A DNA stretch of 53,249 nt from Lysobacterales bacterium (lineage in GTDB: Bacteria > Pseudomonadota > Gammaproteobacteria > Xanthomonadales > SZUA-36): assembly GCA_013042915.1 (NCBI GenBank), contig JABDPF010000027.1, forward strand, positions 1 to 53,249, given 5' to 3'. Positions within the stretch are counted from its first letter, which is position 1; every line of letters starts with the position of its first letter. The notes under the pieces were generated by a model that was not told where the DNA came from, did no database searches, and was given only the letters and a program-made list of their open reading frames with translations. The position numbers were made by a program, and so were the translations under genes. Below are positions 16,012-46,268 of this stretch, one piece after another.

Positions 16012-18750
16012 TCAGCCGGTGTTCTGGATGCCCAGCGCGATGCCCTTGGCCGTCGCTTTGAGCGCGTCCAGCAGCTCGTTGTCCTCGCTGCCGCTCTTGC
16101 GCCAGCGTCGCAACAGGTCGATCTGCAAGTGATGCAGCGGATCCACGTAAGGATTGCGGAGGCGTATGTTACGTTGCAGGACCTTCTGGTCATCCAGCAG
16201 CCGGTCGAGTTGCTTCAGCTCGAGGATGCGGCGGGTTGCGGTGTCGAATTCACTGCTGATCGATTCGAAAAACCGCCCGAGGCTCGGGGGAGCCAGCGAC
16301 GCGTAGCGCGCTCCGATCTCCAGGTCTGATTTCGCCAGCACCATCTCGACGTCGCTGACCATGGCCTGGAAGAACACCTGGTTTCGCAGAAGCCCGCGAA
16401 GCGATTCGATACCGAATTCCTCGATGGCGCGGTCCAGGGCGGTGCCGAACCCGAATACGCCGGGAAATCCCACGCGAACCTGCGCCCATGAAAACACCCA
16501 CGGTATGGCCCGCAGGTTTTCGATCCCCTCGCCGGAGCGGCGTGACGCGGGACGCGAGCCGATGTTCAACTGGCCGATAACGTCCAGCGGAGTGACGGCC
16601 CGGAAAAAAGCCGGAAACTCCGGGTCGTCATAAACCACGGAGCGAAAACGCTGGCGCGATTCGGATGCCATGAACTCCAGGATCCGTTGTTCTTCTGAAT
16701 TCAGCCCCTGAGCCGCGTAACCCATGGAATGGTACAGCGTGGCCGCGGTGACGAGTTCGAGGTTACGGAGCGCCAGGAAACGAACACCGTATTTTTGGTT
16801 GATCACCTCGCCCTGCTCGGTCAGGCGCAGGAATCCGTTCATCGTGTCGGGCGGCGCGCCGAGTATCCCGTTGACCAGGTTGCCACCGCCACGCGAGACC
16901 GTGCCGCCGCGGCCGTGAAAGAACACGATCTCGATGCCCTGGTCGTCCCCGGCGGCCACGAGTCGGCGCTGCGCTTCGTGCAGGGCCCAGCGTGAGGCCA
17001 CGATTCCGCTGTCTTTGCTGCTGTCGGAGTAACCGACCATGACAGCCTGCCGGCTACCCATCTTGGCCAGCTGCTTGCGGTAATACTCGAATCCGAGCAA
17101 TGCCTGCATGATGTCAGGGCCCGCCTGCAGATCGTCCACGGTCTCCAGCAGCGGGGCGACCTGCAGTTTCAGCCCGGCGCCGGTATGCGGGTTGGCGATT
17201 TCCGCGAGCGCCAAGGCGGTCAGCACGTCGTCGGCGCCCTGGGTCATGCTTATGATAAACAGCCCTATTGCAGAATCACCGTACTGCTTGCGTGCGGCAG
17301 AAATAGCGCGGAACACGGCCAGCGATTCACGGGCCGTATCGCTCATTGCCGTCTCGTCCGAAATCTCCGGCAGCCCCCCGTCCTCGAGCAATCGGGCCAG
17401 TACACCGGCCCGATTGTCGGGCGAGCGTTTTTCCCAGTCTTCGCAGCCAAGCAGTTCGCCCACGACGCGCCGGTGCAACAGCGCGTCCTGGCGAACGTCC
17501 AGCGTGACCAGGTGGAAGCCGAAGGTGTGGATGCGGCGCAAGAGTCGTTCTACGCCGAACAACCCGGCATGATCCCCCCGGTTTTCCCGCAAACTGTCGC
17601 CGATCAATTCGATGTCGGTAGCAAGGGCGGCAGCCGATTCGTAAGCATGCTCCCCGTCAGAGATCGTCGCGGTCAGGCGTGCCGCGACCATGCGCAGCAG
17701 GCAACGGTACGGCATGTCGTGATGGCGTTCGGGGATGGCGCGGCTGATGTCCGGAAAGCGGCGCCTGTAGGCCTCCAGGCGATCGAGTACCGGGCGCGAA
17801 AACGAAATTTCCGACAGCGACTGGCTGAGGAAGCGTTCAAGGCGTTTCAGTTCAGGAAGGTAACGGCGAATGATGACGGTTCGCTGACGGGTCAAAGTGG
17901 CCTGTATTGTCTCCGAGGTCACGTTGGGATTGCCGTCCATGTCGCCGCCTACCCAGGAACCGAAACGCAGGATGATGCCGCGCAACAGGCCGTCAGGACA
18001 GTCACCGAAATGCGTTGTCCACGCGGTCTGGAACGCCTCGTAAAACACCGGCGTGACGCGGTACAGGATGTCGGTCAGGTAAAACAGGATATTGTCCAGT
18101 TCATCCGCCACCGTGGGCCGTTGATGCGGCACCATTCGGGTTTGCCACGCCGACGTCAGGGACGCCCGGATTCGCTCCAGCGCCAAGCGCTCCTCGCCCG
18201 GAGTCTGCTCGGGATCGAGCATTTCGGCCAGGCGTAAGACAATCTCGTATTCTTTTTCCTGCAAGGTACGGCGGGTTGCCTCGGTGGGGTGTGCCGTGAA
18301 CACCGGCTGTATCAGCAACTCGTTGATCTCACGCGCGAGTTTGGACGGGTCAACGCCCTTTTGTTTCATCAGTCCAAGCGCGTGGTCCAGCCCGCCGGGC
18401 TGGGCGCCCACCTGGGCCCTCAGGTACACCCGGCGGCGGCGAAGGCGATGGACCTTTTCGGCCAGGTTGACCAGGCGAAGATAGGATGAAAAAGCCTGAA
18501 TGACCTGCATGGTACGGTCGTGATCGAGCTCTGCAAGCACGGTGTCCAGCCCATCGTGCGGGTGGTCCGGCTCGGCCTGACCGGCTTCCCGGCGGCGTAT
18601 GGCGGCTTTGCGCACGGCCTCCACGCATTGGAGCACGTCTTCACCGTGCTGTTCGGCCAGCACCTCACCGAGCAACGATCCGAGCAGGCTGACGTCCGCC
18701 CTGAGCGGGCGATCCTTGGGGGGAATGGCGACTCGTCTGATATCCGGCAT
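16012..18750 (-). CDS. ppc: Phosphoenolpyruvate carboxylase
   Basis: Carboxylates PEP with bicarbonate to oxaloacetate, replenishing the TCA cycle. 912 residues, within the family range. The catalytic histidine H154 lies in FTAHPTEATRRT, and the second signature FHGRGGTVSRGGG is present. The C-terminus QNTG is the usual allosteric-site tail. The start codon is 9 nt after the stop of the last poly-gamma-glutamate gene, so ppc could be transcribed with that operon; it would supply 2-oxoglutarate and hence glutamate carbon. The ATG sits in the loop edge of a GC-rich hairpin (18743-18759). Confidence 0.97.
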   Translation of the reverse strand: MPDIRRVAIPPKDRPLRADVSLLGSLLGEVLAEQHGEDVLQCVEAVRKAAIRRREAGQAEPDHPHDGLDTVLAELDHDRTMQVIQAFSSYLRLVNLAEKVHRLRRRRVYLRAQVGAQPGGLDHALGLMKQKGVDPSKLAREINELLIQPVFTAHPTEATRRTLQEKEYEIVLRLAEMLDPEQTPGEERLALERIRASLTSAWQTRMVPHQRPTVADELDNILFYLTDILYRVTPVFYEAFQTAWTTHFGDCPDGLLRGIILRFGSWVGGDMDGNPNVTSETIQATLTRQRTVIIRRYLPELKRLERFLSQSLSEISFSRPVLDRLEAYRRRFPDISRAIPERHHDMPYRCLLRMVAARLTATISDGEHAYESAAALATDIELIGDSLRENRGDHAGLFGVERLLRRIHTFGFHLVTLDVRQDALLHRRVVGELLGCEDWEKRSPDNRAGVLARLLEDGGLPEISDETAMSDTARESLAVFRAISAARKQYGDSAIGLFIISMTQGADDVLTALALAEIANPHTGAGLKLQVAPLLETVDDLQAGPDIMQALLGFEYYRKQLAKMGSRQAVMVGYSDSSKDSGIVASRWALHEAQRRLVAAGDDQGIEIVFFHGRGGTVSRGGGNLVNGILGAPPDTMNGFLRLTEQGEVINQKYGVRFLALRNLELVTAATLYHSMGYAAQGLNSEEQRILEFMASESRQRFRSVVYDDPEFPAFFRAVTPLDVIGQLNIGSRPASRRSGEGIENLRAIPWVFSWAQVRVGFPGVFGFGTALDRAIEEFGIESLRGLLRNQVFFQAMVSDVEMVLAKSDLEIGARYASLAPPSLGRFFESISSEFDTATRRILELKQLDRLLDDQKVLQRNIRLRNPYVDPLHHLQIDLLRRWRKSGSEDNELLDALKATAKGIALGIQNTG

Positions 18751-18759: not shown

Positions 18760-19779
18760 CTATACCAGCCGCCATCGCCTGTGTGTCAACAGAACCCCAA
18801 AAAACAGCGACAGGGCCAACAGGGCCCAAACGGGCTTGACCCGGAGCGGGGCCTTGGCCTGCACTCGAGGATCGAAGGCGATTCCAGAACGCGCGGCCAA
18901 TTCACGAACATTAAGCACGTGAACAACCGGTATGCCGTCCGACAGCGCCGCGCCGATCACGCCGTCGCCTGCCGGACTTCGTTCGCCGGGCACGTGGAAA
19001 CCCGGAGACAGGCCAAGGATTTCGGGGTCATTCCCGAGATTTGCCTGGGATCCCCCGATGCTGATCAGCAAGCGCGCGCCCCGGCGCTCCAACAGCTCGG
19101 TTTTTTGGATAATGACCTCCTCGAGGGTCACCGCCCGGAGCAGGGGAACACCCGCTGCCCGCGCCGCAGATCGCAGATCCTCGACCGTCTCGGGCGCCAT
19201 CCCACCCCCGGTCTCACTTCCCCCACCCAGCGTGTAGTAGTCCGCGCGGGTGGCGAGAAACCCGGCCCTGCGCAGCTCCAGCCCCAGCACCGGCCAGGGC
19301 AGATCGAGACGGTTCGCACCCCAGCTCGATGCCCCGAGCGACACGACCAGGAGCGGTTCGAGCCCGTACGCCTCGGCAGCGGCCACGGCGCTGAGCAGTA
19401 AACCGGGAAAAGAGGCCGATGAGTAGATCGCCACCGTGTCGCCGGCAACCAGGCCCGCTTTCTCGTACCAGCGATGGAAGCGGATCGCCCAGAGTGGGTC
19501 GCAGGCGGTTCGTTTTGCCTCCAGGCTGCCCAGCGTAGTCGTCAGCGCGCTCCATTCCACCCCAATCAGACCGCACCCGCCGGGATCGTGTTCATGCGTG
19601 GCGTTCGTGCCGTTGGCCGTTCTCCAGGCAGCGACGTGCTTTTGCGCGGCACGGACACGCTCAGCCAGGGCCTGCTCCTCCTCGGACGGCAGGGAGGATG
19701 CCGCCAAATGCCATAAGACGATCATGGCGACCGCCAACAACACGAATTTCAGGTGGGCAAGACGAGTCGGGTTCATCAT
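18760..19779 (-). CDS. Poly-gamma-glutamate system protein (PgsW-like, TIGR04332-type)
   Basis: 339 residues from the ATG at 19779, which overlaps the pgsC stop as ATGA; an upstream in-frame extension to 19914 would run through pgsC and is rejected. There is a TM helix near the N-terminus (FVLLAVAMIVLWHLA) and another at the C-terminus (ALLALSLFFGVLL), with a large soluble domain between that contains Gly-rich turns (LISIGGSQANLG) and an SSASFPGLLL segment. I recall this family as occurring with PgsB and PgsC in Gram-negative PGA loci; its biochemical role is not established. Most likely a periplasm-facing, membrane-anchored component of the synthase or exporter. Confidence 0.75.
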   Translation of the reverse strand: MMNPTRLAHLKFVLLAVAMIVLWHLAASSLPSEEEQALAERVRAAQKHVAAWRTANGTNATHEHDPGGCGLIGVEWSALTTTLGSLEAKRTACDPLWAIRFHRWYEKAGLVAGDTVAIYSSASFPGLLLSAVAAAEAYGLEPLLVVSLGASSWGANRLDLPWPVLGLELRRAGFLATRADYYTLGGGSETGGGMAPETVEDLRSAARAAGVPLLRAVTLEEVIIQKTELLERRGARLLISIGGSQANLGNDPEILGLSPGFHVPGERSPAGDGVIGAALSDGIPVVHVLNVRELAARSGIAFDPRVQAKAPLRVKPVWALLALSLFFGVLLTHRRWRLV

Positions 19780-20210
19780 GCGATCAGCCCGTGGAGCAGG
19801 TAAACGGACAGCGCCGCGGCGATACTCACTGAAATCGCGCCGGCCAACGTCGGAACGAGGCCCTGGCGTTGAACATCGGCGCCGATGAGACCCGGGACCA
19901 CCCAACCCAGCCACAGGGAGGTTTCACCCCACAGGCTGACAAGGGGATAGCGCAGCGCCAGGGCGATCAGCATCGCGGCCGCCAATCGCTGACGGCCGTA
20001 TACGCCGCTAACCCGCACCAGCGACTCCAGCAGCAGCCAGGTCACCAGTCCGCCCAACAAGGCGACGCCTATCCTCGCCGGGTCCGGCGCAACCATCGCA
20101 ATGACTCCGGGTGTGATGATGCCGCCGCAAGCCCATCCGGTACGCTGATAAAACAACATGCCCAACAGCATGCCGGCAGCCAGGCAAGCGGTTTCGTGGT
20201 CGTACGGCAT
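19776..20210 (-). CDS. pgsC: Poly-gamma-glutamate synthase membrane subunit PgsC/CapC
   Basis: 144 residues, almost entirely hydrophobic, with about four or five spans; family members are near 150. Features in common with CapC are the N-terminal half with QRTGWACGGIITPGVIA and a conserved charged-turn pattern. In Bacillus the PgsB-PgsC pair forms the membrane ligase that adds glutamate by gamma-amide bonds. The gene lies 12 nt after the racemase and overlaps the PgsW-like gene. No pgsA/capA homologue is found in the window. Confidence 0.85.
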   Translation of the reverse strand: MPYDHETACLAAGMLLGMLFYQRTGWACGGIITPGVIAMVAPDPARIGVALLGGLVTWLLLESLVRVSGVYGRQRLAAAMLIALALRYPLVSLWGETSLWLGWVVPGLIGADVQRQGLVPTLAGAISVSIAAALSVYLLHGLIA

Positions 20211-20222
20211 CGGGCCCGCGGG

Positions 20223-21272
20223 TCAGTCGAAGGTGCGTGAGACCAGGCTGCGCCATTCGAACAGGTCGTCGACCCGGTCGTAGTCGCGCAGCGCGGCCTC
20301 GGTGGCCGGTGAGACTCCGTGCAGCCAGCGGCCGATCGAATCGATGCTGGCGGCGGGAATATCCACCATGGAAACCACCTTCACGGTGACCGCCGTTTCG
20401 GGGTATCGCGCTTTCGAGCTTTGCGGCAGCAAGAAATCCACCATCTGCCGGTTGGGGTCCAGCCAGGCAGCGACGTCAACCCCGCGGTCTTCGAATGCCC
20501 TCTTCCAGGCCTCCAGCGAATAACCGAAGTGGGTGCAGTTGAAGCTCACGCTGAGCGGACCGTCCACCGGGCCCATCGTGGACAGCGCCTCGTCCACGTA
20601 GGCGTCGATCAGCAGTTCGGTGTCCATCGCGTCGAAGCCCTGTTCGATGTACTGGGTCAGTTGCGGACAGGCTTGAGCCGCGACCCGGGATTGCGCGATG
20701 CCGAGTCGTTCCAGCTGCGCGACGTGATCGCCTTCCTCCACCGTGGTGCGGGTTGCGAACATCACATTGGTCGCATCCGGGTGGTCGGCGAGGAACGCGG
20801 CAATTTGCTGCGCCCCGGTCTCCACGATGCCCGCCAGGGGCGTGGATTCGACCCGGGCGAAGGGTGTGTCGTCGGCCAGCACCGACAGCGTGTTGCAGGC
20901 AACCAGGATCAGGTCAGGATCGAATCGATCCTCCATGGCCTGCAGCGCGCTGTTCAGAACCGCCCGTTTCTCGTCTCGATCGGGCAGGCCGTTGTACCCT
21001 CCCCGATTGGTGAACAGCGCGTTCACGAACACCAGGTCGACCTCGCGGAACCCCCCGTGCCGGCGAAGTTTTTCCGCCGCGTCGGCCACCACCGACAAGC
21101 CTCCGAGACCGGAATCGGTGATCACGACGGTCATCCGCTCTTGTTCGAGCAAACCCGCCAGCCTCTCGGGACTCTCGTCCGCGAACAAGGGTAGTGCCGC
21201 CGACAGCGCCAGCACCAGGCAAACCCTGAACAACGGGCCCAGCAAAGGTCGACCCAACGTCGACACGCTCAA
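20223..21272 (-). CDS. Glutamate racemase-family protein with a signal peptide
   Basis: Asp/Glu racemase fold, cofactor-independent. Both catalytic cysteines are present: C126 in ACNTLS and C246 in NCTHFGYS. The substrate loop DSGLGGLS (53-60) is also intact. Unlike cytosolic MurI, the protein begins with a hydrophobic leader (residues about 14-31, PLFRVCLVLALSAALPLFA, then DES), so the enzyme should act in the periplasm. The TTG at 21272 overlaps the GGT stop; a GTG at 21266 keeps the leader too, while an internal ATG (residue 47) would remove it. The gene sits between GGT and pgsC, suggesting D/L interconversion of glutamate released from, or destined for, PGA. Confidence 0.85.
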   Translation of the reverse strand: MSVSTLGRPLLGPLFRVCLVLALSAALPLFADESPERLAGLLEQERMTVVITDSGLGGLSVVADAAEKLRRHGGFREVDLVFVNALFTNRGGYNGLPDRDEKRAVLNSALQAMEDRFDPDLILVACNTLSVLADDTPFARVESTPLAGIVETGAQQIAAFLADHPDATNVMFATRTTVEEGDHVAQLERLGIAQSRVAAQACPQLTQYIEQGFDAMDTELLIDAYVDEALSTMGPVDGPLSVSFNCTHFGYSLEAWKRAFEDRGVDVAAWLDPNRQMVDFLLPQSSKARYPETAVTVKVVSMVDIPAASIDSIGRWLHGVSPATEAALRDYDRVDDLFEWRSLVSRTFD

Positions 21273-22987
21273 TACCCCATGGCCTGGCCGTCGCGCCGCG
21301 GATCGGCGCCACCGTGGCGCAGCCCCGTCTCTGGGTCGATGACGATTCCCTGGGCGCCTCCAAAGTACAGATCGAAAGACTTCTTGACCTCCAACTCGTG
21401 GCCTTTTTCGACCAGCGAAGCCTGCACGTCCGCTGAGAACCTGTCCTCGATTTTCAGCGGCCCGTCACGGTAGTTGTTGATGCGCGGCGCCTCGATGGCG
21501 CTCTGGATATCCATGCCGTGATCGACCAGGTTGCTGATCAACAAAGCCATGGTCGAGATGATGCGCTTGCCGCCGGGGGATCCCAGCGTGGCGAACGGCC
21601 GGCCGGTTTTCATCAGCAACACCGGGCTCATGCTGCTCAGCGGTTTCTTGCCCGGTTCGATCGAGTTGGCCAGCCCCGGGCGCTTGTCGAAATCGTCCAT
21701 CTGGTCGTTCAGCAGCACGCCGGTGCCCGGCGCGGTTATCCCGGAACCGAAAAAGTGATTGATGGTCTTGGTGCAGGCGACCATGTTGCCGTCGGCGTCC
21801 ACCACCGAGAAATGCGTGGTGCTACCGCTGTCGCCCGCCGCGGCGGATGTGGTGGGATTGCCGGCCTCGAAGCGCTCTGCAGCTCTGTCAGGATCGATTA
21901 ACGCCCTCCGCTGACGAGCGTAAGCCTTGGAAGCGAGGGCATCGACGGGAACGAGCACGTAATCGGCGTCGCCCATGAACCGGGCGCGATCGGCGTAAAC
22001 GAGTTTCATTGCCTCGGCCCACAGGTGCAGGCTCGGCGCGGTGTTCAAACCCATGCCGGCAACGTCGTAGTGCTCCATGATGTTGAGGAGTTCGATCACG
22101 TGCACACCACCCGAACTGGGGGGCGGCGCGGAGATGATGTCGTAGCCGCGGTAGCTGCCCGTCACCGGGCGTCGATAACTGACGAGGAATCCCTCGATGT
22201 CCTCCTGGGTCATCGTGCCACCGCTGGCCCGCACCGCCTGCACGATACTCCGGGCCACCGGACCGGTGTAAAAAGCGTCCCGGCCCTGATCGGCAATCAT
22301 TCGAAGCGTTTTCGCAAGGTCGCGGTTGACCACTTTTTCGCCCGGCATCCGTGGAAAATCGTCGTTGAGGTAAATCGCGGCGGTTTCAGAGTGACTGCTG
22401 AGCGCGTCGTAGTGGTCGGTCATCATGGCGGAGAGCACCTCGGAGACCACCACGCCGTCCTCGGCGTGATCGATGGCCGGCTTCATCACCTGCCGGCGGT
22501 TCAGTCGGCCGAATTCCTCCTGCGCCAGCAGCAGGCCGGCCACTTCGCCCGGCACCGCAACGGATTTCCCGCCGATGACCGCAGGGTTAAATCCACGCTT
22601 GTCGAGCGTGACCTCATCGTCCTCGTTCAGAACGAACATGTCCGGGGTCGTGCCGGACGGCGCCTTGCCCCGAAAGTCGATGTACACCGGCAGGCTGCGC
22701 TGCTTGAGCCAGATCAGCATGAAGCCGCCGCCCCCCAAACCGGAAGCATTGGGTTCAACCACGCCGAGCGCGAATCCCACCGCGACCGCGGCATCCACCG
22801 CGTTGCCCCCGGCTTTGAGAATGTCCACACCGACCTGCGAAGCGAGCGGATGCGCTGAAGCCACCATTCCGTGCTTTCCGCGCGCATCACGGGACGCCTC
22901 GGACGCCATTGCCGTCGCGCTGATCAGCAGCAATAGCAGTGAGCCGAACCAGAGCCCGGGATGAAGTCGTCTTGCCAGGGGATTCAT
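21269..22987 (-). CDS. ggt: Gamma-glutamyltranspeptidase, classical motif set
   Basis: 572 residues, secreted (signal LLLLLISATAMASEA). GGT proenzymes cleave themselves before a threonine; here the TTHFSVVD motif puts the nucleophile at T390. The gamma-glutamate-binding arginine (DFRGKAP), the SSMSP serines and the oxyanion GSPGG are all conserved, so activity is expected. In PGA systems GGT homologues (CapD/PgsD, YwrD/Ggt) cut or transfer gamma-glutamyl chains. The ATG at 22987 is chosen for its GAGAGGA site; the gene starts 11 nt after pgsB and its stop overlaps the racemase start. Confidence 0.92.
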   Translation of the reverse strand: MNPLARRLHPGLWFGSLLLLLISATAMASEASRDARGKHGMVASAHPLASQVGVDILKAGGNAVDAAVAVGFALGVVEPNASGLGGGGFMLIWLKQRSLPVYIDFRGKAPSGTTPDMFVLNEDDEVTLDKRGFNPAVIGGKSVAVPGEVAGLLLAQEEFGRLNRRQVMKPAIDHAEDGVVVSEVLSAMMTDHYDALSSHSETAAIYLNDDFPRMPGEKVVNRDLAKTLRMIADQGRDAFYTGPVARSIVQAVRASGGTMTQEDIEGFLVSYRRPVTGSYRGYDIISAPPPSSGGVHVIELLNIMEHYDVAGMGLNTAPSLHLWAEAMKLVYADRARFMGDADYVLVPVDALASKAYARQRRALIDPDRAAERFEAGNPTTSAAAGDSGSTTHFSVVDADGNMVACTKTINHFFGSGITAPGTGVLLNDQMDDFDKRPGLANSIEPGKKPLSSMSPVLLMKTGRPFATLGSPGGKRIISTMALLISNLVDHGMDIQSAIEAPRINNYRDGPLKIEDRFSADVQASLVEKGHELEVKKSFDLYFGGAQGIVIDPETGLRHGGADPRRDGQAMGY

Positions 22988-22998
22988 ATTCGTTCCTC

Positions 22999-23979
22999 TC
23001 AATACAGTGCCAGCGGATGGCCGGCAATGTTGCCGCAACCGAATGCGCTGTCGCCCGGCTGCAGCAATCGTAACAGAGACGACGCGCCGTCAAGCCTCAG
23101 GTAATGTGAACCCGCCGGCCGGCTCACGGGACGGTCGCCGATGATCACTACCTCGCGCCAGCGGCCCCGGGACAGCCAGTCCCCGAAACTGCGAAAACGC
23201 CCGGGCCGGTCCGCTCGGTGGTTATAGACCAGCCGTGTCGATTCCTCGCGCCAACGCAGACTTCTGAATAAGGCACGGGTGCTCGCGATGTCGTTTACCG
23301 AGAACGCCAACGCCAACTCGGCGCCGCGGTGCCGGAGAACCCGGAAATCATAGCGATCCTGACCCAGCCCCTGCACGGCCCGGCGTGCCTCGGTGGCAGG
23401 CAGGCCCAGGTGCTCGAGCGCCGCAAGGGCAAGCCCGGCGTTGACCGACTGGTGGGCGGGCCCGCCAGAGTCTTCCGCCGTTGCGAACACCGCGGTGCAG
23501 CCGCGCTTTTCAAGAAGCGAACGCAGGCTTTTGTCGTGTTCGAGATGTTCGGGCATCAGAACGCGCCCGTCCGGATGCAGCCCCGCCGCCAGCGCTTCGG
23601 CAGCGGCGGCAGGTCCCGGCCCCCAGGCTTCCTGGTGATCGGGCAGCACGTTGGTGAGGATCGTCAGATGCGGACGCAGCCAGCGCGCGGCCAGCGGCTG
23701 GAGCTCGGGGGTAATCGAGCTGTTTTCGAGTACGATGGCCTGCGCCTTCTGGGGCAATGACCGCAACCACCAGCGCATTTCCTCGACGTGTGCGCCCGAG
23801 GTGCGCAGGATTTCTCGTGTGCCGCCGGGTCCGAGCTGCCTGGGCACCACCCCGGTGATTCTCGTCCAGGCTTCCAGCCCACAGGCTTCAAAGGCCGCGT
23901 GAAGCAGGCGTGCAACGCTGCTCTTGCCCCGGCTTCCGGTCACCAGGACACGCAGCGAACCGTCCCCGATCGATCTCAT
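22999..23979 (-). CDS. pgsB: Poly-gamma-glutamate synthase ligase subunit PgsB/CapB
   Basis: Mur-ligase-like ATP-dependent amide ligase that activates the gamma-carboxyl of glutamate as an acyl phosphate. The P-loop TGSRGKSS is at residues 14-21, close to the N-terminus as in CapB. Further Mur-like features are VLENSSITPELQ, LTNVLPDHQEAWG and an H-rich RLVYNHRADRPGR turn. At 326 residues it is shorter than the Bacillus protein (about 390). A GGAG site lies 6 nt before the ATG. It is separated from its partner pgsC by the GGT and racemase genes, an unusual order. Confidence 0.85.
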   Translation of the reverse strand: MRSIGDGSLRVLVTGSRGKSSVARLLHAAFEACGLEAWTRITGVVPRQLGPGGTREILRTSGAHVEEMRWWLRSLPQKAQAIVLENSSITPELQPLAARWLRPHLTILTNVLPDHQEAWGPGPAAAAEALAAGLHPDGRVLMPEHLEHDKSLRSLLEKRGCTAVFATAEDSGGPAHQSVNAGLALAALEHLGLPATEARRAVQGLGQDRYDFRVLRHRGAELALAFSVNDIASTRALFRSLRWREESTRLVYNHRADRPGRFRSFGDWLSRGRWREVVIIGDRPVSRPAGSHYLRLDGASSLLRLLQPGDSAFGCGNIAGHPLALY

Positions 23980-24009
23980 CGAACGCTCCGGAAGCGGGCC
24001 GGGCCCGTT

Positions 24010-25158
24010 TCAATCCCTGAGGTACGCACCGACGCCCTCCTCGGAAAGGGAAGTGTAGGCGGGCAATCCCTCGATGACGATGCCCGCGTCATCGCGCACG
24101 AACTCGAGGTTTTCCGCCAGCAGTTTCACGGACGTCACGTGCCGGCCCACGCGCTCGGCGATGCGCTTGTCCCAACTCTCCCACGGCACGTACAGGCGGC
24201 CCAGCTCGGCTGCCTTGTCGTACGCCTTGTCCTCACCGGTCAGAACCAGGGCCTCGCCCGTGCGTCCGCGGAAGCGGCCGGCGCTGGCGTTGCAGGTTTC
24301 CATCAGAATCGCCAGCACGTCGGTCTGATCGCCCCACTCGCGGTGACTGAGACCCCGCAGATTCTTCGGTGACGGCTCGAGCCGGATCGGTATGCCTTCA
24401 AATTCCAGCTCCATGGTCACCATGGCGGCCAACTCCATGGCGCGCTCGTGCGCGACCAGCGCGTCGACCACCGGGTATTCGGGTGAGGCCTCGTGAAGGT
24501 CGATGGCCAGGTCGACGTCCTCCTGCTTGATCAGCTGCATGAACCCGTAAGCCAGTTGTTCAGTCATGCCGCCGTCTGCGACGCCCGGGTGCGCTCGGTT
24601 CAGATTACTCCGCTCCACCCCGGCCATCGTCTGACCGGACGCAGGGTGGATGTAGATGTCCGGATTGGGCCATTCGTTGACAGGGTTGGTGGTTCGCGCA
24701 CCGTAGCGGAAGGTTCTGCGCACGCCCCCGGAGGTCTCGAACCCAAAGGTTTGCGGATGGGCGTCCTGTGGAAAGGTGTGCGTGCGCGCCATCAGGTTCG
24801 CATACGGCGCGATGATCAGCCGACCGCGCTTGACGTCTGCGTTTTCCAGCAACACCACGGCGGCCACGACGCCGGCAGGCTCGTTGGCGTGGGTTCCGCC
24901 GAGCACCAGCAGGGTCCCGCCGGGCTGTTCGCCCTCCTGCACGTAGACATCGGTATCCGCTGGCGTGTCCTGAAGGCCTTGAAAGTAGTCGCTCAGGCGC
25001 TTGTGAACAAAACCCTCGCGTGGCACGACGCGATCGACGTCGGGCCCCGGGTGGTGCATGCGGAGGTAACTGTGCGCACTGATCGCCGCAACCGCCACGG
25101 CGCCCAACAGCAACAGCGTGGCCGAAAAGCGGGAGGCAAGGTAGCGCTTTTCGAACAT
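24010..25158 (-). CDS. Membrane-anchored AstE/aspartoacylase-like zinc peptidase (M14 fold)
   Basis: 382 residues. An N-terminal hydrophobic anchor (SATLLLLGAVAVAAISA, residues 12-28) places the domain in the periplasm. The zinc triad is H90 and E93 (GGTHANEPAG) and H222 (DLHEASP), with the substrate-binding R-S-N-L-N-R segment at 184-188 and a VLAILMETC strand near the usual catalytic glutamate. The fold releases amino acids from N-acyl or peptide carboxyl ends; in this context a gamma-glutamyl or PGA-end substrate is plausible. It lies between a 49-residue membrane protein and pgsB, 30 nt before the latter. Confidence 0.82.
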   Translation of the reverse strand: MFEKRYLASRFSATLLLLGAVAVAAISAHSYLRMHHPGPDVDRVVPREGFVHKRLSDYFQGLQDTPADTDVYVQEGEQPGGTLLVLGGTHANEPAGVVAAVVLLENADVKRGRLIIAPYANLMARTHTFPQDAHPQTFGFETSGGVRRTFRYGARTTNPVNEWPNPDIYIHPASGQTMAGVERSNLNRAHPGVADGGMTEQLAYGFMQLIKQEDVDLAIDLHEASPEYPVVDALVAHERAMELAAMVTMELEFEGIPIRLEPSPKNLRGLSHREWGDQTDVLAILMETCNASAGRFRGRTGEALVLTGEDKAYDKAAELGRLYVPWESWDKRIAERVGRHVTSVKLLAENLEFVRDDAGIVIEGLPAYTSLSEEGVGAYLRD

Positions 25159-25167
25159 GGCGGAAAC

Positions 25168-25317
25168 CTACTTGATGAACAGAACCCGAAGCAGCAACGG
25201 CACCAGCACCATCGCCGCGACGAATTGTTCGCGTAAGGATTTTTCACGGTACAGGCTTCGCACCACCAGCACGATGACGAACACCGTGATCGCCCAGTAT
25301 ACCCATGTCAGGATCAT
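25168..25317 (-). CDS. 49-residue two-span membrane protein
   Basis: Short gene between the TRAP permease and the M14-type peptidase. The ATG at 25317 has a strong GAGGAGG-type ribosome binding site about 7 nt upstream. The product has a first hydrophobic helix (WVYWAITVFVIVLVVRSLY), a polar hinge (REKSLREQF) and a second helix (VAAMVLVPLLLRVLF), ending with IK. Gaps of 13 and 9 nt to its neighbours and the good ribosome binding site argue for a real gene. It could be a small subunit of the transporter or a membrane adaptor; no family is recognised. Confidence 0.75.
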   Translation of the reverse strand: MILTWVYWAITVFVIVLVVRSLYREKSLREQFVAAMVLVPLLLRVLFIK

Positions 25318-25330
25318 GTCGATTGCCTCC

Positions 25331-26626
25331 TCAAAACCAATCGGCCCCGATAATAATAAGGATGCCCCAGGCCGCGGTTACGACCGCCGGCAGCAGGCAA
25401 ACCTTCAGAACCTTGAAATAGTTCTTGACCCCCACGACCTGGGCCGCGAACAGTCCGGCCAGCGCGGTCGGCGGCATCAGGTCACCCAGGCCGGCAATCA
25501 GGCTCAGGGCGGAACCGACCACGATTTCATCGCGCCCCAGCAGGGCCAGCAGAAACGGCACGCCAAGTACGGTGGCCGAACCATAGGCGGAAACCGCCCC
25601 GAACAGCGGCAGCGACGTGGCGATACCGACGTAGAGCAGCCAGGCCGGCAAGGCCAGAGCCGACACGACGAAAAACCCTCGCACGCCGGTCAGGGTCATG
25701 ATCTGTATAAACATGCCCACCCCGACGAGGATGCCCGCCACCGGCAGCGCAGCCTGAACCGCCTCCGTTGCCGCTTCCATCGGATTCCATTTCTGCCCCG
25801 TCAGCAGGCCGCTGGCCGCTGCCAGCAGGAAGGCGAGCGGCATGCCGAGCGACGGGGCGATCTGTGGGAACAGGCGCTCGCCCCCCAGCAATACCACCAG
25901 TACCAAGAACGGCAGCATCAACCGCGGTGTGAGCCGGACTCGGGCCATGCGGTCAAGCTCGACTTCCAGTTCCTTGTCTTCGCCGCCGGGGCCGATGGCC
26001 GCTGACTGCTTGAGCGAAGGGTAGACCAGCAGCATGCCCGTGAAAATCGCCAGCGGCACGGTGCAGATCAGCAGCGGAATGCCGAAGCCGACGTAGGGCA
26101 TATCGATGCCGCCGCCGATGATCATCGCAGGGATGTTGATCGGCGGCGCCGTCATCCCGTAAATGGCGGCCAATGCGATGGCGGCGGCAGCCTTTACCGG
26201 CGGCACGCCGAGGCGCAACAGCGTGGGCGTAACGATGGCGCCTGCCGTCAACACGGCTGCCGAAGAAGAGCCCGTGATCATGCCCGGTAGCATCAGGAGC
26301 GCGGTGATACCCATCGTCAGCCGGAACGGCAGCACCCGGAACCGGCGGATCATCCAGGCCGCGGCGGATTCCATCAGGCCGATGTGCTGCACCGTTTTCA
26401 TGAAGATCATCGCGCAGACGATGATCAGGATGGTGTCGAGGTAGCCGAAAGCGCCCTCGATCAGGTGATCGACGGGCACGCCGTTGCCCGAAATCAACGC
26501 GCCGACGATGGCCGCGATGGCCAGCGCCACCGCGATCGGCTGGCGAAATGCGAACGAGGCCAGGGCGAATACGCCGACCATCACCAGCGTGTAAAAACCT
26601 TCAGGCCAGAACCACTCCACCGTCAT
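25331..26626 (-). CDS. TRAP-type large permease (DctM-like)
   Basis: 431 residues with about twelve hydrophobic segments. It shows the large-subunit features MLPGMITGSSSAAVLTAGAI and, in the second repeat, SLIAGLGDLMPPTALAGLF, with the inverted-repeat hairpin pattern of the ion transporter superfamily. TRAP systems take up carboxylates (C4-dicarboxylates, sialate, glutamate) using a periplasmic binding protein and a small membrane subunit. Neither is encoded beside it unless the 49-residue protein or the DUF6305 protein replaces one. In this operon the natural candidate substrate is glutamate or gamma-glutamyl oligomers (inference). Confidence 0.85.
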   Translation of the reverse strand: MTVEWFWPEGFYTLVMVGVFALASFAFRQPIAVALAIAAIVGALISGNGVPVDHLIEGAFGYLDTILIIVCAMIFMKTVQHIGLMESAAAWMIRRFRVLPFRLTMGITALLMLPGMITGSSSAAVLTAGAIVTPTLLRLGVPPVKAAAAIALAAIYGMTAPPINIPAMIIGGGIDMPYVGFGIPLLICTVPLAIFTGMLLVYPSLKQSAAIGPGGEDKELEVELDRMARVRLTPRLMLPFLVLVVLLGGERLFPQIAPSLGMPLAFLLAAASGLLTGQKWNPMEAATEAVQAALPVAGILVGVGMFIQIMTLTGVRGFFVVSALALPAWLLYVGIATSLPLFGAVSAYGSATVLGVPFLLALLGRDEIVVGSALSLIAGLGDLMPPTALAGLFAAQVVGVKNYFKVLKVCLLPAVVTAAWGILIIIGADWF

Positions 26627-26639
26627 AGCCCGCTGACCA

Positions 26640-27710
26640 TCAATTCAGAAACCGCCCGATGGGGCCTGCCATGAGTTCTTCGTACTCCGGGATTCCCCTC
26701 ATTTCCAGGCGTTTGCCCGTGGCATCACCGTGGGCGTCGGCCAGGTGCTTGAACAGGCGGAGGTGCAGGCCGGCGCGGTGCGTAAGCGGGTATCTCGTAT
26801 CGCTCACCACGTCAGGGTCGTCCCGCCAGCGATCCTGGCCCGGGTTGGGGCTCTCGCTGAGGAACGAGACGGCGGGCGAGTTGTCGCCGATCTCGATGTG
26901 GCTGAGCCCTCGGTATGTCGAATTCGATTCTTCCAGCTTCATGCTGATGCCCGTATCGGCATCCATCTCCAACAGCGCAAACGCGGCCGTCTCCAGTCCC
27001 CGGGGGTGGGCCACCAGGGTGTAGGCCAGGCGCCTGTTACCGCCGGGCCGGTAGTCTGCCTCGCCGGTGGGTTTGCGCTCCGGCGTGTCTGCCTCGTGCA
27101 TGTCCAGGGCGAAATCGATGGCCTCGGCGCGGACCAACTGCATGACCGCCCAGGCCAGGCGCTCGGTTGGCGTACCGTCCGCCTTGCCAGGATACGTTCG
27201 GTTCAGGTTGCGCGACTCGGCGCCGTTTTCTAGCGTGTAGCCCGGCGGGTTCGTGTACCGCCCGGGGTCCGGGACGCCCTGGTCCGCCGGGTCGGTGCGG
27301 CGGTCTCCGTAAGGCAGGTACCTCTCCCCGCTTCGACTCTCGATACGGTGATGCCGCGTCACCGCGTTTCGACTGTCCGGCATCGACATCGCGCTTCGAT
27401 TGACGTACGGGATGACCACCAGCTTGCCCCGAATTGCGGTGACGTTCTCGACCGCCAGCAAGGCCGCCACTTGCCCTGCCAGTTCGTTACCGTGGGTACC
27501 GCCGATCATCAGGCCCACCGCACCGGGCACGCCGCTGTCGAGGACGAAAACCTCGCTATCCATCGCCGTATCCGCCAGCGGTGCGAAATAGTCCGAGAGC
27601 AGGCGCTGTTCGGTGACACCGGCCCCGGGACGCACGTCGGGGGAGAACTCCGCCGCAGCGGCGGTCAGGGACAGCAGCAGGCAAATGCCCGACAACAGGT
27701 TCCGCGTCAC
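26640..27710 (-). CDS. Secreted AstE/aspartoacylase-like zinc peptidase (M14 fold)
   Basis: 356 residues with a cleavable signal peptide (LLSGICLLLSLTAAAA). The zinc ligands are H73 and E76 (GGTHGNELAG) and H205 (LDMHEADTP), and the R-N-L-N-R segment is at 167-171. It is paralogous to the protein at 24010-25158 (same motif spacing) but soluble and with a longer loop before GNRRLAYT. A GTG start at 27710 overlaps the GGT stop (GTGA). Likely cleaves a carboxyl-terminal or N-acyl amino acid in the periplasm; gamma-glutamyl substrates are an inference from context. Confidence 0.82.
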   Translation of the reverse strand: MTRNLLSGICLLLSLTAAAAEFSPDVRPGAGVTEQRLLSDYFAPLADTAMDSEVFVLDSGVPGAVGLMIGGTHGNELAGQVAALLAVENVTAIRGKLVVIPYVNRSAMSMPDSRNAVTRHHRIESRSGERYLPYGDRRTDPADQGVPDPGRYTNPPGYTLENGAESRNLNRTYPGKADGTPTERLAWAVMQLVRAEAIDFALDMHEADTPERKPTGEADYRPGGNRRLAYTLVAHPRGLETAAFALLEMDADTGISMKLEESNSTYRGLSHIEIGDNSPAVSFLSESPNPGQDRWRDDPDVVSDTRYPLTHRAGLHLRLFKHLADAHGDATGKRLEMRGIPEYEELMAGPIGRFLN

Positions 27711-29464
27711 TCGCCTGCGTCCCCGGGGGCCGCGGCCCCGCCGTTGCGCCGAATCGAACCCACGCCGGTGAGCAGGCCGTCGGCGGCGATCGAGATCGCG
27801 TTTGGGCCGCCGAAATAGAGGTCCGGGTGATCGTATTCGGTCACGACGTGGCCCATGGTTTCCAGCAGTTCAACGGTTTTTTGAGGGAATTCGTCCTCCA
27901 GCTGAATTTCGCGGTAGGCGTCGTAGCCCGTGAACTTGGGCGTTCGAATCGCCGCTTCGAGGTTCATTTCGAAATCGATCAGGTTGACCAGGATTTCGAC
28001 GAGCGTGGAGCCGATCCGGCCCGCTCCGGGCGAACCGAGCACCCAGCGGACCTGCCCGTCCTTTTTCACGATCATCGGGGCGATCGTCGTACGGGGACGG
28101 CGCCCGGGTTCCAGGTTGATTGGACTGCCTTCCACCCGCTGCGCCTTGAAATTGCCCAGCTCGTTGTTCAAAAAATAACCGTCGACCTGGTGGCCGGTGC
28201 CGAAGAAGCTGGAAACGGTTTGCGTCCAGGCCACGGCGTTGCCTTTCTTGTCGACCACCGAGAAGTGCGTGGTCGAGGGCGGCACGTCGGTCAGTTCGCC
28301 TTCGACCGAGGCCCGACGTCTCGCCTCGAGCACGACATCAACGTATTCAGTCTCGGCGTCCTGGTAGGGACCCGGATCGCCCACCCGGTGGCTGTGCCAC
28401 AAGGAGGGGTCGGAGGCCCGTGCAAGATTGATCAGCAGGGTGCGTTCGCGCGCATACTGCTTGCTGATGAAACCCGTCTCGGGGATGTATTGATTGGTCT
28501 CCGGATCGCCCATCCATCGGCGCTGGTCCAGCGCGGTGAGGATCATGGCTTCCTGCATCAGATGAATGGCCAGGGGATCGTCCCAGCCCATCAAGCCGAG
28601 GTTGAAATGCTCGAGGATGTTGAGCGTTGCAAGTATTCGGGGCCCGCCCACCGGGCTTCCGGGCACGCTGAGCTCGTAACCGCGATAGTGGCCTTTGACC
28701 GGTTCACGCACCAGCGCGCGGTAGGCCTCCAGGTCGGACTTGCGGGTCCAGCCGCCGTTCTGGCGCATGAAGCGGTCCAGGCTGTTGGCCAGTTCGCCTT
28801 CGTAAAATACCCGGACACCCCCCGCCGCCATGCGCTTGAGTGTGTGTGCCAGGGCCGGGTTGCGAAACGTTTCTCCAGCGCTCCAGGGCATGCCGTCGTT
28901 GAGGAACTCCGGCGCGTTCTCGTACAGCACTTCCCAGCGGTCCATCGTCACCGCGGAGAAGGTTTCATTGACCACGAACCCGTCCTCCGCCAGACGGATG
29001 GCGGGCGCCGCCAGCTTTTCAAGCGGAAGGGACCCCATCGTCAACGCCTTGCCGATCCCGGCAGGCACGCCGGCCACGCAGAATGCCTTGGGCGTGTAGC
29101 GAAGATCGCGCAGTTTTCCCGCCTTCGCCAGATTTTCGTAGGTCGCGAGGGCCGGCGCCGTGCTGCGGAAATCGATGGCGGTCTCGCGACCGTCCGCCAT
29201 CACCGCCACCAGGTAACCTTCGCCACCCAGACCGGATGCATAGGGCTCCACAACACCAAGCGCCAGGCTGACCGCGATGGCCGCATCGACGGCGTTGCCA
29301 CCCTGCTCGAGGATTTCCGCGCCGGCTTCGGCGGCCAGCGGGTTGGCCGCGGTGACCATGCCCTCGCGCGATTGCAGGACGGGTGAGACGGTCACGCCAT
29401 GCGCGGCCGGGACCAGCGCGAGCGAGAGAAGAATCGGAAGAAACCGCTTGGCAGGGGACTTCAT
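27707..29464 (-). CDS. Gamma-glutamyltranspeptidase homologue, divergent
   Basis: 585 residues, secreted (signal FLPILLSLALVPAAHG). The self-processing motif STTHFSVVD is intact, with the nucleophile at T398, and the DFRSTAP arginine is present. However the SSMSP pair is TTIAP and the oxyanion segment is GSPGAGR rather than GSPGG. It may hydrolyse or transfer a different gamma-glutamyl substrate than its paralogue at 21269-22987. The ATG at 29464 has a GGAGG site; the gene follows the DUF6305 gene by 56 nt and its stop overlaps the M14-type peptidase start. Confidence 0.88.
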   Translation of the reverse strand: MKSPAKRFLPILLSLALVPAAHGVTVSPVLQSREGMVTAANPLAAEAGAEILEQGGNAVDAAIAVSLALGVVEPYASGLGGEGYLVAVMADGRETAIDFRSTAPALATYENLAKAGKLRDLRYTPKAFCVAGVPAGIGKALTMGSLPLEKLAAPAIRLAEDGFVVNETFSAVTMDRWEVLYENAPEFLNDGMPWSAGETFRNPALAHTLKRMAAGGVRVFYEGELANSLDRFMRQNGGWTRKSDLEAYRALVREPVKGHYRGYELSVPGSPVGGPRILATLNILEHFNLGLMGWDDPLAIHLMQEAMILTALDQRRWMGDPETNQYIPETGFISKQYARERTLLINLARASDPSLWHSHRVGDPGPYQDAETEYVDVVLEARRRASVEGELTDVPPSTTHFSVVDKKGNAVAWTQTVSSFFGTGHQVDGYFLNNELGNFKAQRVEGSPINLEPGRRPRTTIAPMIVKKDGQVRWVLGSPGAGRIGSTLVEILVNLIDFEMNLEAAIRTPKFTGYDAYREIQLEDEFPQKTVELLETMGHVVTEYDHPDLYFGGPNAISIAADGLLTGVGSIRRNGGAAAPGDAGE

Positions 29465-29520
29465 GCGCCGGGCCTCCGCTTTTGAGGGCGCCGCGTCAGC
29501 GGACACGGCGCCGTTGAAAA

Positions 29521-30075
29521 TCAGGGCAGAACACCCCACTCGGTCAGAATAGCTTCCAACGGCCCGGACGTCTCGCGGACTGAAGGCGCCGGAATCATTT
29601 CAACATCGGCCTCCTGGGCCAGGCGAGTGAACAGGCCATCGAAATCGCCCCCTTCGACAACCAGCAGCTTGTCCGCCATCGGCACCGCCTCGACGATGAA
29701 CAGGTCGGTCAACGTGCCGCGGCGGCCTTTGCCGCCGATGTGCATCACCAGCGTTTTCATGCCGGCTTGCCTGGCCGCCGCCACGACGGAATTCATGCGG
29801 GCAATTTCGGCATCCTTGTCGATGCCGGCCTCGCCCAATCCCTTGGAACTGCCTGCCACAACGGTGATCAACACCTGCTCACCCTGCAGGCCGTCCGCTT
29901 CGAGCAGCTTGTCCAGGCGCCCGTCGACACCCAGCTTCTTTAACACCACCCGAACCATCATAGCGTCCGGGCTTTGGCCAAATGGCGTGAGCACGACCCC
30001 GTCCGCCAGTGCCGCGCCAGAGACAGCGACGCATAGGACCAGGGCAAGAAGGATTCGACGAACTCGGTTCTTCAT
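29521..30075 (-). CDS. DUF6305-like secreted protein
   Basis: 184 residues with a signal peptide (LLALVLCVAVSGAALA). The mature protein has a Rossmann-like alternation of strands and helices: LTPFGQSPDAMMVR, then VLITVVAGSSKGLGEAGID, then KTLVMHIGGKGRRGTLTD and DKLLVVEGGDFDG. I recognise these as the signature of the DUF6305 family, whose function is unknown; the Gly/Ser-rich loops suggest small-molecule binding. It is the first gene of the PGA run, with a GAGGAG site, and could act as a binding protein for the TRAP-type permease (inference). Confidence 0.75.
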   Translation of the reverse strand: MKNRVRRILLALVLCVAVSGAALADGVVLTPFGQSPDAMMVRVVLKKLGVDGRLDKLLEADGLQGEQVLITVVAGSSKGLGEAGIDKDAEIARMNSVVAAARQAGMKTLVMHIGGKGRRGTLTDLFIVEAVPMADKLLVVEGGDFDGLFTRLAQEADVEMIPAPSVRETSGPLEAILTEWGVLP

Positions 30076-38984: not shown

Positions 38985-40517
38985 ATGTTCCAAACAGCGG
39001 AACTGGGTCAAAAAGTCCTTAAAAAAGAATTCAAAGATCAGGAACTGGTTCTCAGGACCAACCTGCTCGCCTTACAGCAGCAATTGCTCAAACAAGGCGA
39101 TTATTCGGTGCTGATCGATTTCGCCGGCGTTCGAGGTGCCGGCAAGGGCACATCGACCAACCTTTTGAACAAGTGGATGGACGCGCGCTGGATTCTCACG
39201 CACGCCTACGATAAGCCAACCGACGAGGAATCGGGGCGCCCCCGGTTCTGGAAGTTCTGGCGCTTCATGCCGCCCAAGGGCCAGATCGGCATCCACCTCA
39301 GCGGCCGATACTCCCGCCCGCTGCTCGATTACGTGTACGGCAACATCGACCTCAGCCAATTTAGACACCAGCTGGACCACATCAACACGTTCGAGAAAAC
39401 ACTGGCCGATGACGGCACGATGGTCCTCAAGTTCTGGATGCACATCAGCAAGGAGGCCCAGAGAAAGCGGCTGGAAAAACTGGAAAAGGACCCGCTGCGC
39501 AGCTGGCGCATGTCCGAAATCGACTGGAAGCACTACGAAATGTACGACCAGTTCATCGAGGCGGCCGAACTGATCGTCATGCAAACCAATACCGGGCATG
39601 CCCCCTGGGAAATCGTGGAGGGCGGCGACAAGCGCTACCGCGCCCTGCGGGTAGGAGAGTTGGTCCAGGAAAACCTCGAACGACACATGGTCAGCGAGGA
39701 AATCCGTCAGAAGTACCTGTCCGAGATGCGCGCCAAGCTGGAAGAGAAGACCGAGGAGCAGGAAGCGGAGGGGCTCAACCTGCCGAAGACCATCCTCGAC
39801 AAACTCGATTTTTCCAAGACGGTCAGCAAGTCCACGTACCGCAACAAATTAGTACAGGGCCAAGCCCGCCTGGCGGCGCTTCACGGTGAGATGATCAAGC
39901 GGGGGCGCTCGACGATACTGGTGTTCGAAGGCCCCGACGCAGCCGGCAAGGGAGGCACGATTCGCCAGATTACCGAGGCCCTGGACGCGCGCTATTACAA
40001 GGTCTACCCCTTTGCCGCGCCGACCGAGACCGAGCGCGCGCACCACTACCTCTGGCGCTTCTGGAACTGCATCCCGATGGCCGGCCGAATGACCATTTTC
40101 GACCGCAGCTGGTACGGACGGGTGCTGGTGGAACGCATCGAAGGCTTCGCCGGCGACGACGAGTGGCGCAGGGCCTTCGCCGAGATCAACGATTTCGAAG
40201 ACCAGCTGATCGACGACGGTCTCGTTCTGTTGAAGTTCTGGCTGCAGATCAGCAAGGACGAACAACTCGCCCGCTTCAAGTCACGCGAAGTGACGCCTCA
40301 CAAGCGCTGGAAGCTGCAGGACGAGGACTGGCGAAACCGCGAGAAATGGGACGAATACAACGTCGCCGCCCACGAGATGATCCAGCAGACCTCGGTCAAG
40401 AACTCACCCTGGGTGCTGGTTGAGAACGAGAGCAAGCACTACGGCCGCATCGCGGTGCTCGAATCAGTCTGCGATGCGCTAGAAGCGGCCCTGGAAAACC
40501 AAGACCACGTCAGTTAG
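38985..40517 (+). CDS. pap: Polyphosphate:AMP phosphotransferase (PPK2 class II, two-domain)
   Basis: Uses polyphosphate to phosphorylate AMP to ADP. 510 residues, with tandem PPK2 domains. The second has a full set: Walker A GPDAAGKGG (K322) and Walker B DRSWYGRVLVERIE. The first keeps a P-loop (GVRGAGKGT, 48-56) but has HLSGRYSRPLLD in place of the DRSWY motif, so it is probably not catalytic, as is usual for this class. AGGAAG lies before the ATG; GTGTTATCTTTT upstream could be part of a promoter. The next gene follows after 19 nt. Confidence 0.93.
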   Translation: MFQTAELGQKVLKKEFKDQELVLRTNLLALQQQLLKQGDYSVLIDFAGVRGAGKGTSTNLLNKWMDARWILTHAYDKPTDEESGRPRFWKFWRFMPPKGQIGIHLSGRYSRPLLDYVYGNIDLSQFRHQLDHINTFEKTLADDGTMVLKFWMHISKEAQRKRLEKLEKDPLRSWRMSEIDWKHYEMYDQFIEAAELIVMQTNTGHAPWEIVEGGDKRYRALRVGELVQENLERHMVSEEIRQKYLSEMRAKLEEKTEEQEAEGLNLPKTILDKLDFSKTVSKSTYRNKLVQGQARLAALHGEMIKRGRSTILVFEGPDAAGKGGTIRQITEALDARYYKVYPFAAPTETERAHHYLWRFWNCIPMAGRMTIFDRSWYGRVLVERIEGFAGDDEWRRAFAEINDFEDQLIDDGLVLLKFWLQISKDEQLARFKSREVTPHKRWKLQDEDWRNREKWDEYNVAAHEMIQQTSVKNSPWVLVENESKHYGRIAVLESVCDALEAALENQDHVS

Positions 40518-40536
40518 CGTGAACAGGCCGTAGACC

Positions 40537-42158: not shown

Positions 42159-42167
42159 GGCGGCCCG

Positions 42168-42962: not shown

Positions 42963-42976
42963 AGAGAGGATAAAGC

Positions 42977-43731: not shown

Positions 43732-43734
43732 TCA

Positions 43735-46173: not shown

Positions 46174-46202
46174 AGTATCAACCAGATACCCCCCGATGAT
46201 GG

Positions 46203-46229
46203 AGGCTGCGGGCCAGCCTTGTTTCTTTA
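46203..46229 (+). terminator. Terminator of glgP
   Basis: AGGCTG / CAGCCT stem with loop CGGGC, followed by TTGTTTCTTT. Correct orientation for the glgP transcript, 29 nt after the stop. Confidence 0.65.
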
Positions 46230-46235
46230 AACACC

Positions 46236-46261
46236 GGGTCGGCTCCATTGGCCCCCGACCC
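46236..46261 (-). terminator. Hairpin after glgB
   Basis: GGGTCGG / CCGACCC inverted repeat with a 12-nt loop, just past the glgB stop on the minus strand. No clear T-run, so it may act as an mRNA 3' end stabiliser rather than an intrinsic terminator. Confidence 0.4.
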
Positions 46262-46268
46262 TATCGGG

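Follow-up and report, generated by a model that had tools for sequence, protein, structure and literature searches.

A poly-gamma-glutamate synthase locus coupled to a conserved hydrolase-permease cassette in a Lysobacterales bacterium

Poly-gamma-glutamate (PGA) has so far been studied mainly in Bacillus capsules and fermentations, as far as the literature found shows. Described here is a gammaproteobacterial locus in which PGA synthase genes stand together with genes for a permease, a racemase and secreted hydrolases. The locus lies in a 53,249-nucleotide (nt) stretch of a Lysobacterales bacterium (assembly GCA_013042915.1, contig JABDPF010000027.1), here called the window, and comprises eleven tightly packed minus-strand genes at positions 18760-30075. 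An earlier note, made from the sequence alone, had proposed a unit for synthesis, racemisation, cleavage and uptake of PGA; the eleven minus-strand open reading frames (ORFs) were found where it had placed them, and profile scores agreed with the families it had listed. There is good support for a conserved cassette that is coupled to PGA synthase genes. Together with a permease, a racemase and secreted gamma-glutamyl hydrolases, these genes form a conserved unit, and the neighbours recur in three phyla. That the locus both makes and reclaims a gamma-glutamyl polymer, most simply PGA, is a reading suggested by sequence to which we give about an even chance; it draws on gene content, conserved order, active-site residues, signal segments, a missing lid loop and co-distribution. 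The genes are given below in the order 30075 to 18760 (duf6305, GGT1, M14a, dctM, orf49, M14b, pgsB, GGT2, rac, pgsC, pgsW), with the evidence for each in brackets; lengths are in amino acids (aa).

29521..30075, minus strand: DUF6305 protein, 184 aa, secreted (PF19823, 138.6 bits, cut-off 25; structure model; N-terminal hydropathy)
27707..29539, minus strand: GGT1, secreted gamma-glutamyltransferase (GGT), lid-loop-less (TIGR00066, 364.8 bits, over the cut-off of 357.85; alignments)
26640..27710, minus strand: M14a, secreted AstE/AspA-type zinc hydrolase (PF24827, 38.3 bits, cut-off 25; catalytic residues present)
25331..26626, minus strand: DctM-like permease with 11 hydrophobic segments (DctM domain PF06808, 48.9 bits, cut-off 23.8; simple hydropathy scan; tree)
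25168..25317, minus strand: orf49, 49 aa, two hydrophobic segments, adjoining the permease (hydropathy; recurring position)
24010..25158, minus strand: M14b, membrane-anchored or secreted AstE/AspA-type zinc hydrolase (PF24827, 36.3 bits)
22999..23979, minus strand: PgsB, short form of 326 aa, Mur-ligase-type ATPase (TIGR04012, 91 bits, below the equivalog cut-off of 222.7; Mur_ligase_M, 37.8 bits, cut-off 24)
21269..23038, minus strand: GGT2, secreted GGT, lid-loop-less, nucleophile Thr407 (TIGR00066, 524.4 bits; alignment with E. coli and B. licheniformis GGT)
20223..21272, minus strand: rac, secreted glutamate-racemase-like protein of the Asp/Glu racemase superfamily, with Cys126 and Cys246 (TIGR00067, 46.7 bits, below the MurI cut-off of 146.65)
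19776..20210, minus strand: PgsC membrane protein (Pfam CapC domain PF14102, 91.3 bits, cut-off 27; TIGR04011, 70.5 bits, below the equivalog cut-off of 96.45)
18760..19779, minus strand: PgsW, poly-gamma-glutamate system protein with N- and C-terminal hydrophobic segments, longest ORF to 19914 (TIGR04332, 305.8 bits, cut-off 100; structure model)

Recurrence of the locus and its cassette

The arrangement is more than the chance of one genome, because the gene order recurs in other genomes; conservation of the neighbours, on which the earlier note had made its proposal depend, was found across the three phyla. A PgsW alignment retrieved 43 loci, the closest of which outside Lysobacterales belong to Acetomicrobium hydrogeniformans and two Synergistales strains (46-47% identity). 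Acetomicrobium carries duf6305-dctM-orf49-M14-GGT, an M14 fragment and GGT-pgsB-pgsC-pgsW; its pgsW is followed by a histidine kinase, a response regulator (DpiA-like helix-turn-helix match below cut-off) and a LarA-type racemase (L018:10962-14239; L and G numbers are our handles for loci and genomes). No gene of the block was present in the fetched DNA of 37 of the 43 loci. Most Idiomarina-type, Wenzhouxiangella and Krumholzibacteria loci are among them, as are three Lysobacterales contigs of the host's family that are cut off early; several others are short. Among 185 Synergistota genomes, TIGR04332 was found in 71, DUF6305 in 69 (68 over the cut-off) and both in 62. Regions around PgsW were fetched, 40 of them from Synergistota (38 of the 71 genomes) and 16 from genomes related to a Bacteroidetes metagenome-assembled genome (MAG), and the duf6305-dctM-orf49-M14 block stood beside the pgs genes in 20 and 7 of them, respectively, either before pgsB or after pgsW and often with a GGT next to it; nine of the 16 had no block gene (one of these is a 3-kb contig). 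In a Clostridia MAG (L022:2-11137), two DUF6305 genes, a weak M14 match and a glutamate-racemase-like gene lie a few kb upstream of pgsBCW.

Closer to the host, TIGR04332 was detected in the host alone in a 397-genome sample of the phylum and in 5/39 genomes of its family, while the six DUF6305-bearing genomes of an order-wide sample of 398 all belong to that family. A MAG of Lysobacterales, G457 (coordinates matching those of G035), carries duf6305-GGT-M14-dctM-orf49-M14-pgsB-GGT as far as the end of one contig (L059) and GGT-rac-pgsC-pgsW-GGT on a separate contig (L016), which if joined would give the order of the window plus one extra GGT. In G033, the end of pgsB, GGT, rac, pgsC and pgsW share one contig and duf6305-GGT-M14 lies on another; G036 has duf6305-GGT-M14-dctM and G007 duf6305-GGT-M14-dctM-orf49, each up to a contig end, and the first GGT appears as a short fragment in G033 and G007. 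After pgsC-pgsW, a sister MAG (L015:1683-7020) has two LysR regulators and, between them, a DcuC-family carrier, a weak esterase/lipase match and a DadA-like D-amino acid dehydrogenase.

The hydrolase-permease cassette can also form an independent module, in some cases with no pgs genes. Twenty DUF6305 loci were chosen outside the fetched pgs regions (one of them, in G499, has a PgsW gene about 16 kb away); the whole block was present in 18, one was cut by a contig end and one was a divergent DUF6305 pair. Permease and DUF6305 occurred together in 53 distinct loci (54 before L036 and L061 were recognised as the same locus, which also reduces 41 GGTs to 40 and 54 M14 proteins to 53), with a GGT within 4.5 kb in 33, a C69-family dipeptidase (PF03577) in 16, both in none and neither in four, three of which (L169, L180, L181) end near a contig end. 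The dipeptidase takes the place of the GGT in one cassette clade (L123:9286-10929 and 15 more loci), and some C69-type cassettes have a PgsW paralogue and no pgsB or pgsC (L115, L130, L144). Of the loci examined, 16 have a histidine-kinase ORF nearby and 18 a response-regulator ORF.

Midpoint-rooted FastTree trees, whose supports do not prove a donor, separate the permeases of GGT and C69 types (support 1.0), group those of the window and L059 with five Synergistota permeases (0.945) and, for PgsB-PgsW, place the window among Synergistota (0.807, with weakly supported nodes nearby). This placement supports lateral transfer, and the window's copy of the cassette was probably acquired from a Synergistota-like source.

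The window itself is unlikely to be a contaminating contig, because ordinary chromosomal genes (AcrB-type efflux pump, phosphoenolpyruvate carboxylase, phosphoserine transaminase and glycogen genes) flank the locus on both sides; it is contig C16 of the host genome (G000, 2.69 Mb, 96% complete), and its G+C content is 64.5% in the locus and 61.5% in the rest. With the longest ORFs, gaps are at most 30 nt and overlaps are 4, 4, 19 and 40 nt, while the 139-nt overlap of pgsC and pgsW comes from an over-long pgsW start, with an ATGA junction at 19779-19776. The limit of 56 nt that the earlier note gave for the gaps depends on the starts chosen. A promoter scan, with no sigma-70-like site where 2.8 were expected, carries no information. 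The ppc gene starts 9 nt past pgsW and serA ends 131 nt ahead of duf6305; the former, a phosphoenolpyruvate carboxylase gene (16012-18750, NF000584) on the same strand as pgsW, could be co-transcribed with the locus. A PPK2 polyphosphate kinase and glycogen genes (phosphorylase, branching enzyme, nucleotidyl transferase) lie at 38985-49818, about 9-20 kb from it.

Synthase genes, hydrolases, racemase and transport genes

PgsW stands beside PgsB- and PgsC-like genes. PgsB has a P-loop, the lysine of which is kept in 83 of 88 aligned sequences (the other five are gapped there), and a hydropathy scan found no transmembrane segment in it, N-terminal or other. A CapA-like fold was considered for PgsW, whose predicted structure has a predicted local distance difference test (pLDDT) score of 92.6, and was set aside because none of the PDB matches was convincing and the 50 rows listed contained no CapA entry, a non-match that does not mean that the folds differ. 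A single relevant paper on PgsW or TIGR04332 was found among the open-access matches listed.

The earlier statement that CapA/PgsA is absent holds for the locus, where PF09587 matched none of the 10 of 11 proteins scanned, and fails for the genome, which has a CapA-domain gene on another contig (G000:C84; 675 aa, PF09587 187.9 bits). A homologue elsewhere that works with these genes had been named in advance as a finding that would speak against the proposal, yet CapA does not track the pgs genes in the host's family: PF09587 occurs in 14/39 genomes, that is in one of five with PgsW (the host alone, the other four being drafts of 77-89% completeness) versus 13 of 34 without, and the unlinked gene is therefore unlikely to be the missing partner. 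By precedent CapA is not required, since B. subtilis PgsBC without PgsA is reported to yield 26 g/L of L-rich PGA (PMC6029982).

In an alignment of GGT ORFs of 480-680 aa, the catalytic nucleophile Thr is kept in 41/41 proteins (40 distinct), and the lid segment measures 12-15 residues in 39 of them (38/40 distinct) versus 23 in E. coli; a 23-residue segment occurs solely in L150 and L151, whose GGTs have bare pgs genes at a distance of about 4 kb. The B. subtilis enzyme, also without the lid loop, is described as hydrolysing PGA (PMC9073855) and as removing single units from its N-terminal side (PMC4497714). GGTs could alternatively belong to a capsule system, in which they would act as CapD-type enzymes that trim PGA and anchor it to the envelope, while M14 would set the chain length and uptake would mop up. 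The B. anthracis cap operon encodes CapD, a GGT-family enzyme that links PGA to the cell wall (PMC4497714, PMC3815933), and CapD chains do occur among the GGT matches. We nonetheless consider a capsule system unlikely: GGT2 is closer to the large chain of E. coli GGT than to that of CapD (283.8 vs 165.5 bits), and the passages on the cap operon in these two papers name neither a permease nor a secreted racemase.

The M14 alignment took in 54 of 56 proteins (300-450 aa, at least 250 bits), and H90, E93, N187, R188, H222 and E287 of M14b are invariant in all 54 (53 distinct). These residues correspond to the zinc-binding residues, the general base and the Asn-Arg pair of the AstE/AspA family. 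N-succinyl-glutamate, a known substrate of that family, resembles gamma-glutamyl-glutamate.

The racemase-like protein of the window has an N-terminal hydrophobic segment, and its Cys126 and Cys246, presumably catalytic as in MurI, are invariant in five aligned proteins. Among 60 genomes related to the Bacteroidetes MAG, 13 had racemase matches of at least 270 bits; these occurred in 6/8 genomes with a demonstrated cassette vs 0/8 with bare pgsBCW (Fisher p 0.007, phylogeny ignored), a count that includes G648, which supplied one query row, and leaves out G660, which has such a racemase and too short a contig to show a cassette. Four of the high-scoring hits contain in-frame stop codons within the matched stretch, and 11 of the 12 high-scoring loci fetched encode a hydrophobic N-terminal segment. 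An earlier hydropathy scan had found this segment in two of five 'rac' proteins; those of L022 and L171 are MurI-like and without it, and that of L160 had been read from a late start (re-read as L197). In the Synergistota locus L171, the MurI gene passes the cut-off (175.5 vs 146.65 bits) and stands directly ahead of duf6305.

The only other racemase match of the host genome is a paralogue without a signal segment, the start of which overlaps the end of a gene for the MpaA murein tripeptide amidase (L185:2865-4513, G000:C33; NF007897, 244.6 vs 157 bits), and both this paralogue and the window protein stay below the MurI cut-off, which leaves the genome without any racemase above it. Both observations favour a recycling of peptidoglycan fragments in which GGT, M14 and racemase would act on gamma-D-glutamyl peptides of murein. 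This account is nevertheless highly improbable in our view, as it leaves pgsBCW unexplained and as the cassette M14 proteins, unlike the paralogous locus, match AstE/AspA models with no MpaA match. Xanthomonas and its relatives are reported to make peptidoglycan via MurD2/MurL, without D-Glu-forming genes (PMC8788868).

Profile scans gave no family match for orf49. The DUF6305 protein has a hydrophobic N-terminus in 55/57 homologues (one homologue counted twice), and its predicted structure is one Rossmann-like domain (pLDDT 92.3), a confident model on which the idea of a two-lobed binding protein was rejected. Foldseek gave weak matches, a designed protein scoring best (E 7.9e-04). With VIA-align, a sugar kinase came first (Z 10.8, 3.4 A over 155 residues), closely followed by many unrelated folds; because the matches are weak and spread over unrelated folds, no function can be assigned to DUF6305, for which no publication was found in the open-access literature.

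Proposed making and reclaiming of a gamma-glutamyl polymer

If the locus makes and reclaims its polymer, PgsB with PgsC, and with PgsW replacing CapA, would polymerise glutamate at the inner membrane and deliver it to the periplasm or cell surface, where lid-less GGTs would take gamma-glutamyl units off the amino end and the AstE/AspA-type M14 hydrolases would cleave glutamate off the carboxyl end. The secreted racemase would convert glutamate between its D and L forms, and the product would be re-imported by the DctM-like permease together with DUF6305 and the 49-aa partner. In this scheme we infer the polymer, the end from which M14 cleaves, the direction of transport, the activity and substrate of the racemase, the roles of DUF6305 and orf49, and co-transcription. 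More speculatively, and with distinctly lower confidence, diderms of the three phyla may keep PGA in the periplasm or at the surface, to serve as a reversible reserve or osmotic polyanion. PgsBCW would build it, and lid-less GGT and AstE/AspA-type hydrolases would dismantle it from both ends, alongside a secreted racemase that needs no cofactor. DctM, the 49-aa subunit and DUF6305 would form a minimal tripartite-like importer, in which the specificity of the permease would co-evolve with the hydrolase (GGT or C69).

Since the modules also occur apart, the main rival is that they are separate neighbours, pgsBCW making surface PGA and the DUF6305-DctM-orf49-M14-GGT cassette scavenging environmental gamma-glutamyl peptides or other amides, a possibility that we rate as rather doubtful. 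The modules are separable, because some genomes carry DUF6305 or PgsW without the other: 7 of the 69 DUF6305-bearing Synergistota genomes have no PgsW hit (one of these DUF6305 hits being below cut-off), and 9 of the 71 with PgsW lack DUF6305. Separate functions would also account for the 18 whole cassettes outside the fetched pgs regions and for the C69 dipeptidase that can stand in for GGT. They explain less well that the cassette adjoins the pgs genes in three phyla and on either side of them, that ggt2 and rac sit between pgsB and pgsC in the window, and that nearly all distinct GGTs lack the lid loop.

Beyond the genomes that hold one module only, several observations weigh against the make-and-reclaim reading. 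Eighteen of the 40 Synergistota PgsW regions have no block gene, and in some pgsBCW loci the cassette is of the C69 type rather than the GGT type, which would not be expected of a PGA cycle alone. G007, at 97% completeness, carries the cassette and gave no PgsW hit, and high-scoring racemases occur in 6/43 Bacteroidetes-MAG relatives without PgsW. PgsB falls short of its equivalog cut-off and the racemase far short of that of MurI, structure comparison returned no functional match for the PgsW or the DUF6305 model, and the host genome is a draft of 105 contigs.

Should the make-and-reclaim reading be true, diderms of several phyla would both make and reclaim PGA, with an undescribed transporter-hydrolase cassette and a secreted glutamate-racemase family, and DUF6305 and TIGR04332 would gain a context. 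The locus offers candidate PGA-processing enzymes, for which Acetomicrobium and other Synergistota are candidate hosts.

Comparison with known systems

PgsBC systems and PGA-degrading GGTs are already known; no account of the combined cassette was found in the open-access literature, in line with the earlier note, which knew of none. The permease resembles those of tripartite ATP-independent periplasmic (TRAP) transporters in belonging to the DctM family, but the name TRAP-type permease used before is too strong, as no DctP or DctQ was found beside it among the 30 window ORFs scanned with Pfam, and the 49-aa protein and DUF6305 are adjacent or close instead. The racemase-like protein shares with MurI the superfamily, the DSG motif and the Cys pair, and differs in its signal segment and in a score far under the MurI cut-off. 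As in B. subtilis, the GGTs are secreted and lid-loop-less, and the B. subtilis enzyme is described as a PGA exo-hydrolase; it is unlinked to pgs there, whereas two copies lie inside the locus here.

A Francisella capA is labelled 'poly-gamma-glutamate system protein' in a table of PMC5362203. Outside Bacillus, PGA genes also occur as an operon in Cloacimonadota, described in PMC13082233 as CapB, CapC and CapA in a typical Gram-positive organisation. The bare pgsB-pgsC-TIGR04332 loci of Idiomarina, Wenzhouxiangella and other Gram-negatives have the same three synthase genes in the same order, without the DUF6305-DctM-orf49 block in the fetched DNA. With the Bacillus pgsBCA and capBCAD operons, the locus shares a PgsB-type ligase, PgsC and the possible presence of a GGT-family enzyme in the operon (CapD; PMC4497714, PMC3815933); it differs from them in having PgsW instead of CapA and a short PgsB without a transmembrane segment, and it adds the M14 hydrolases, the permease, orf49, DUF6305 and the secreted racemase.

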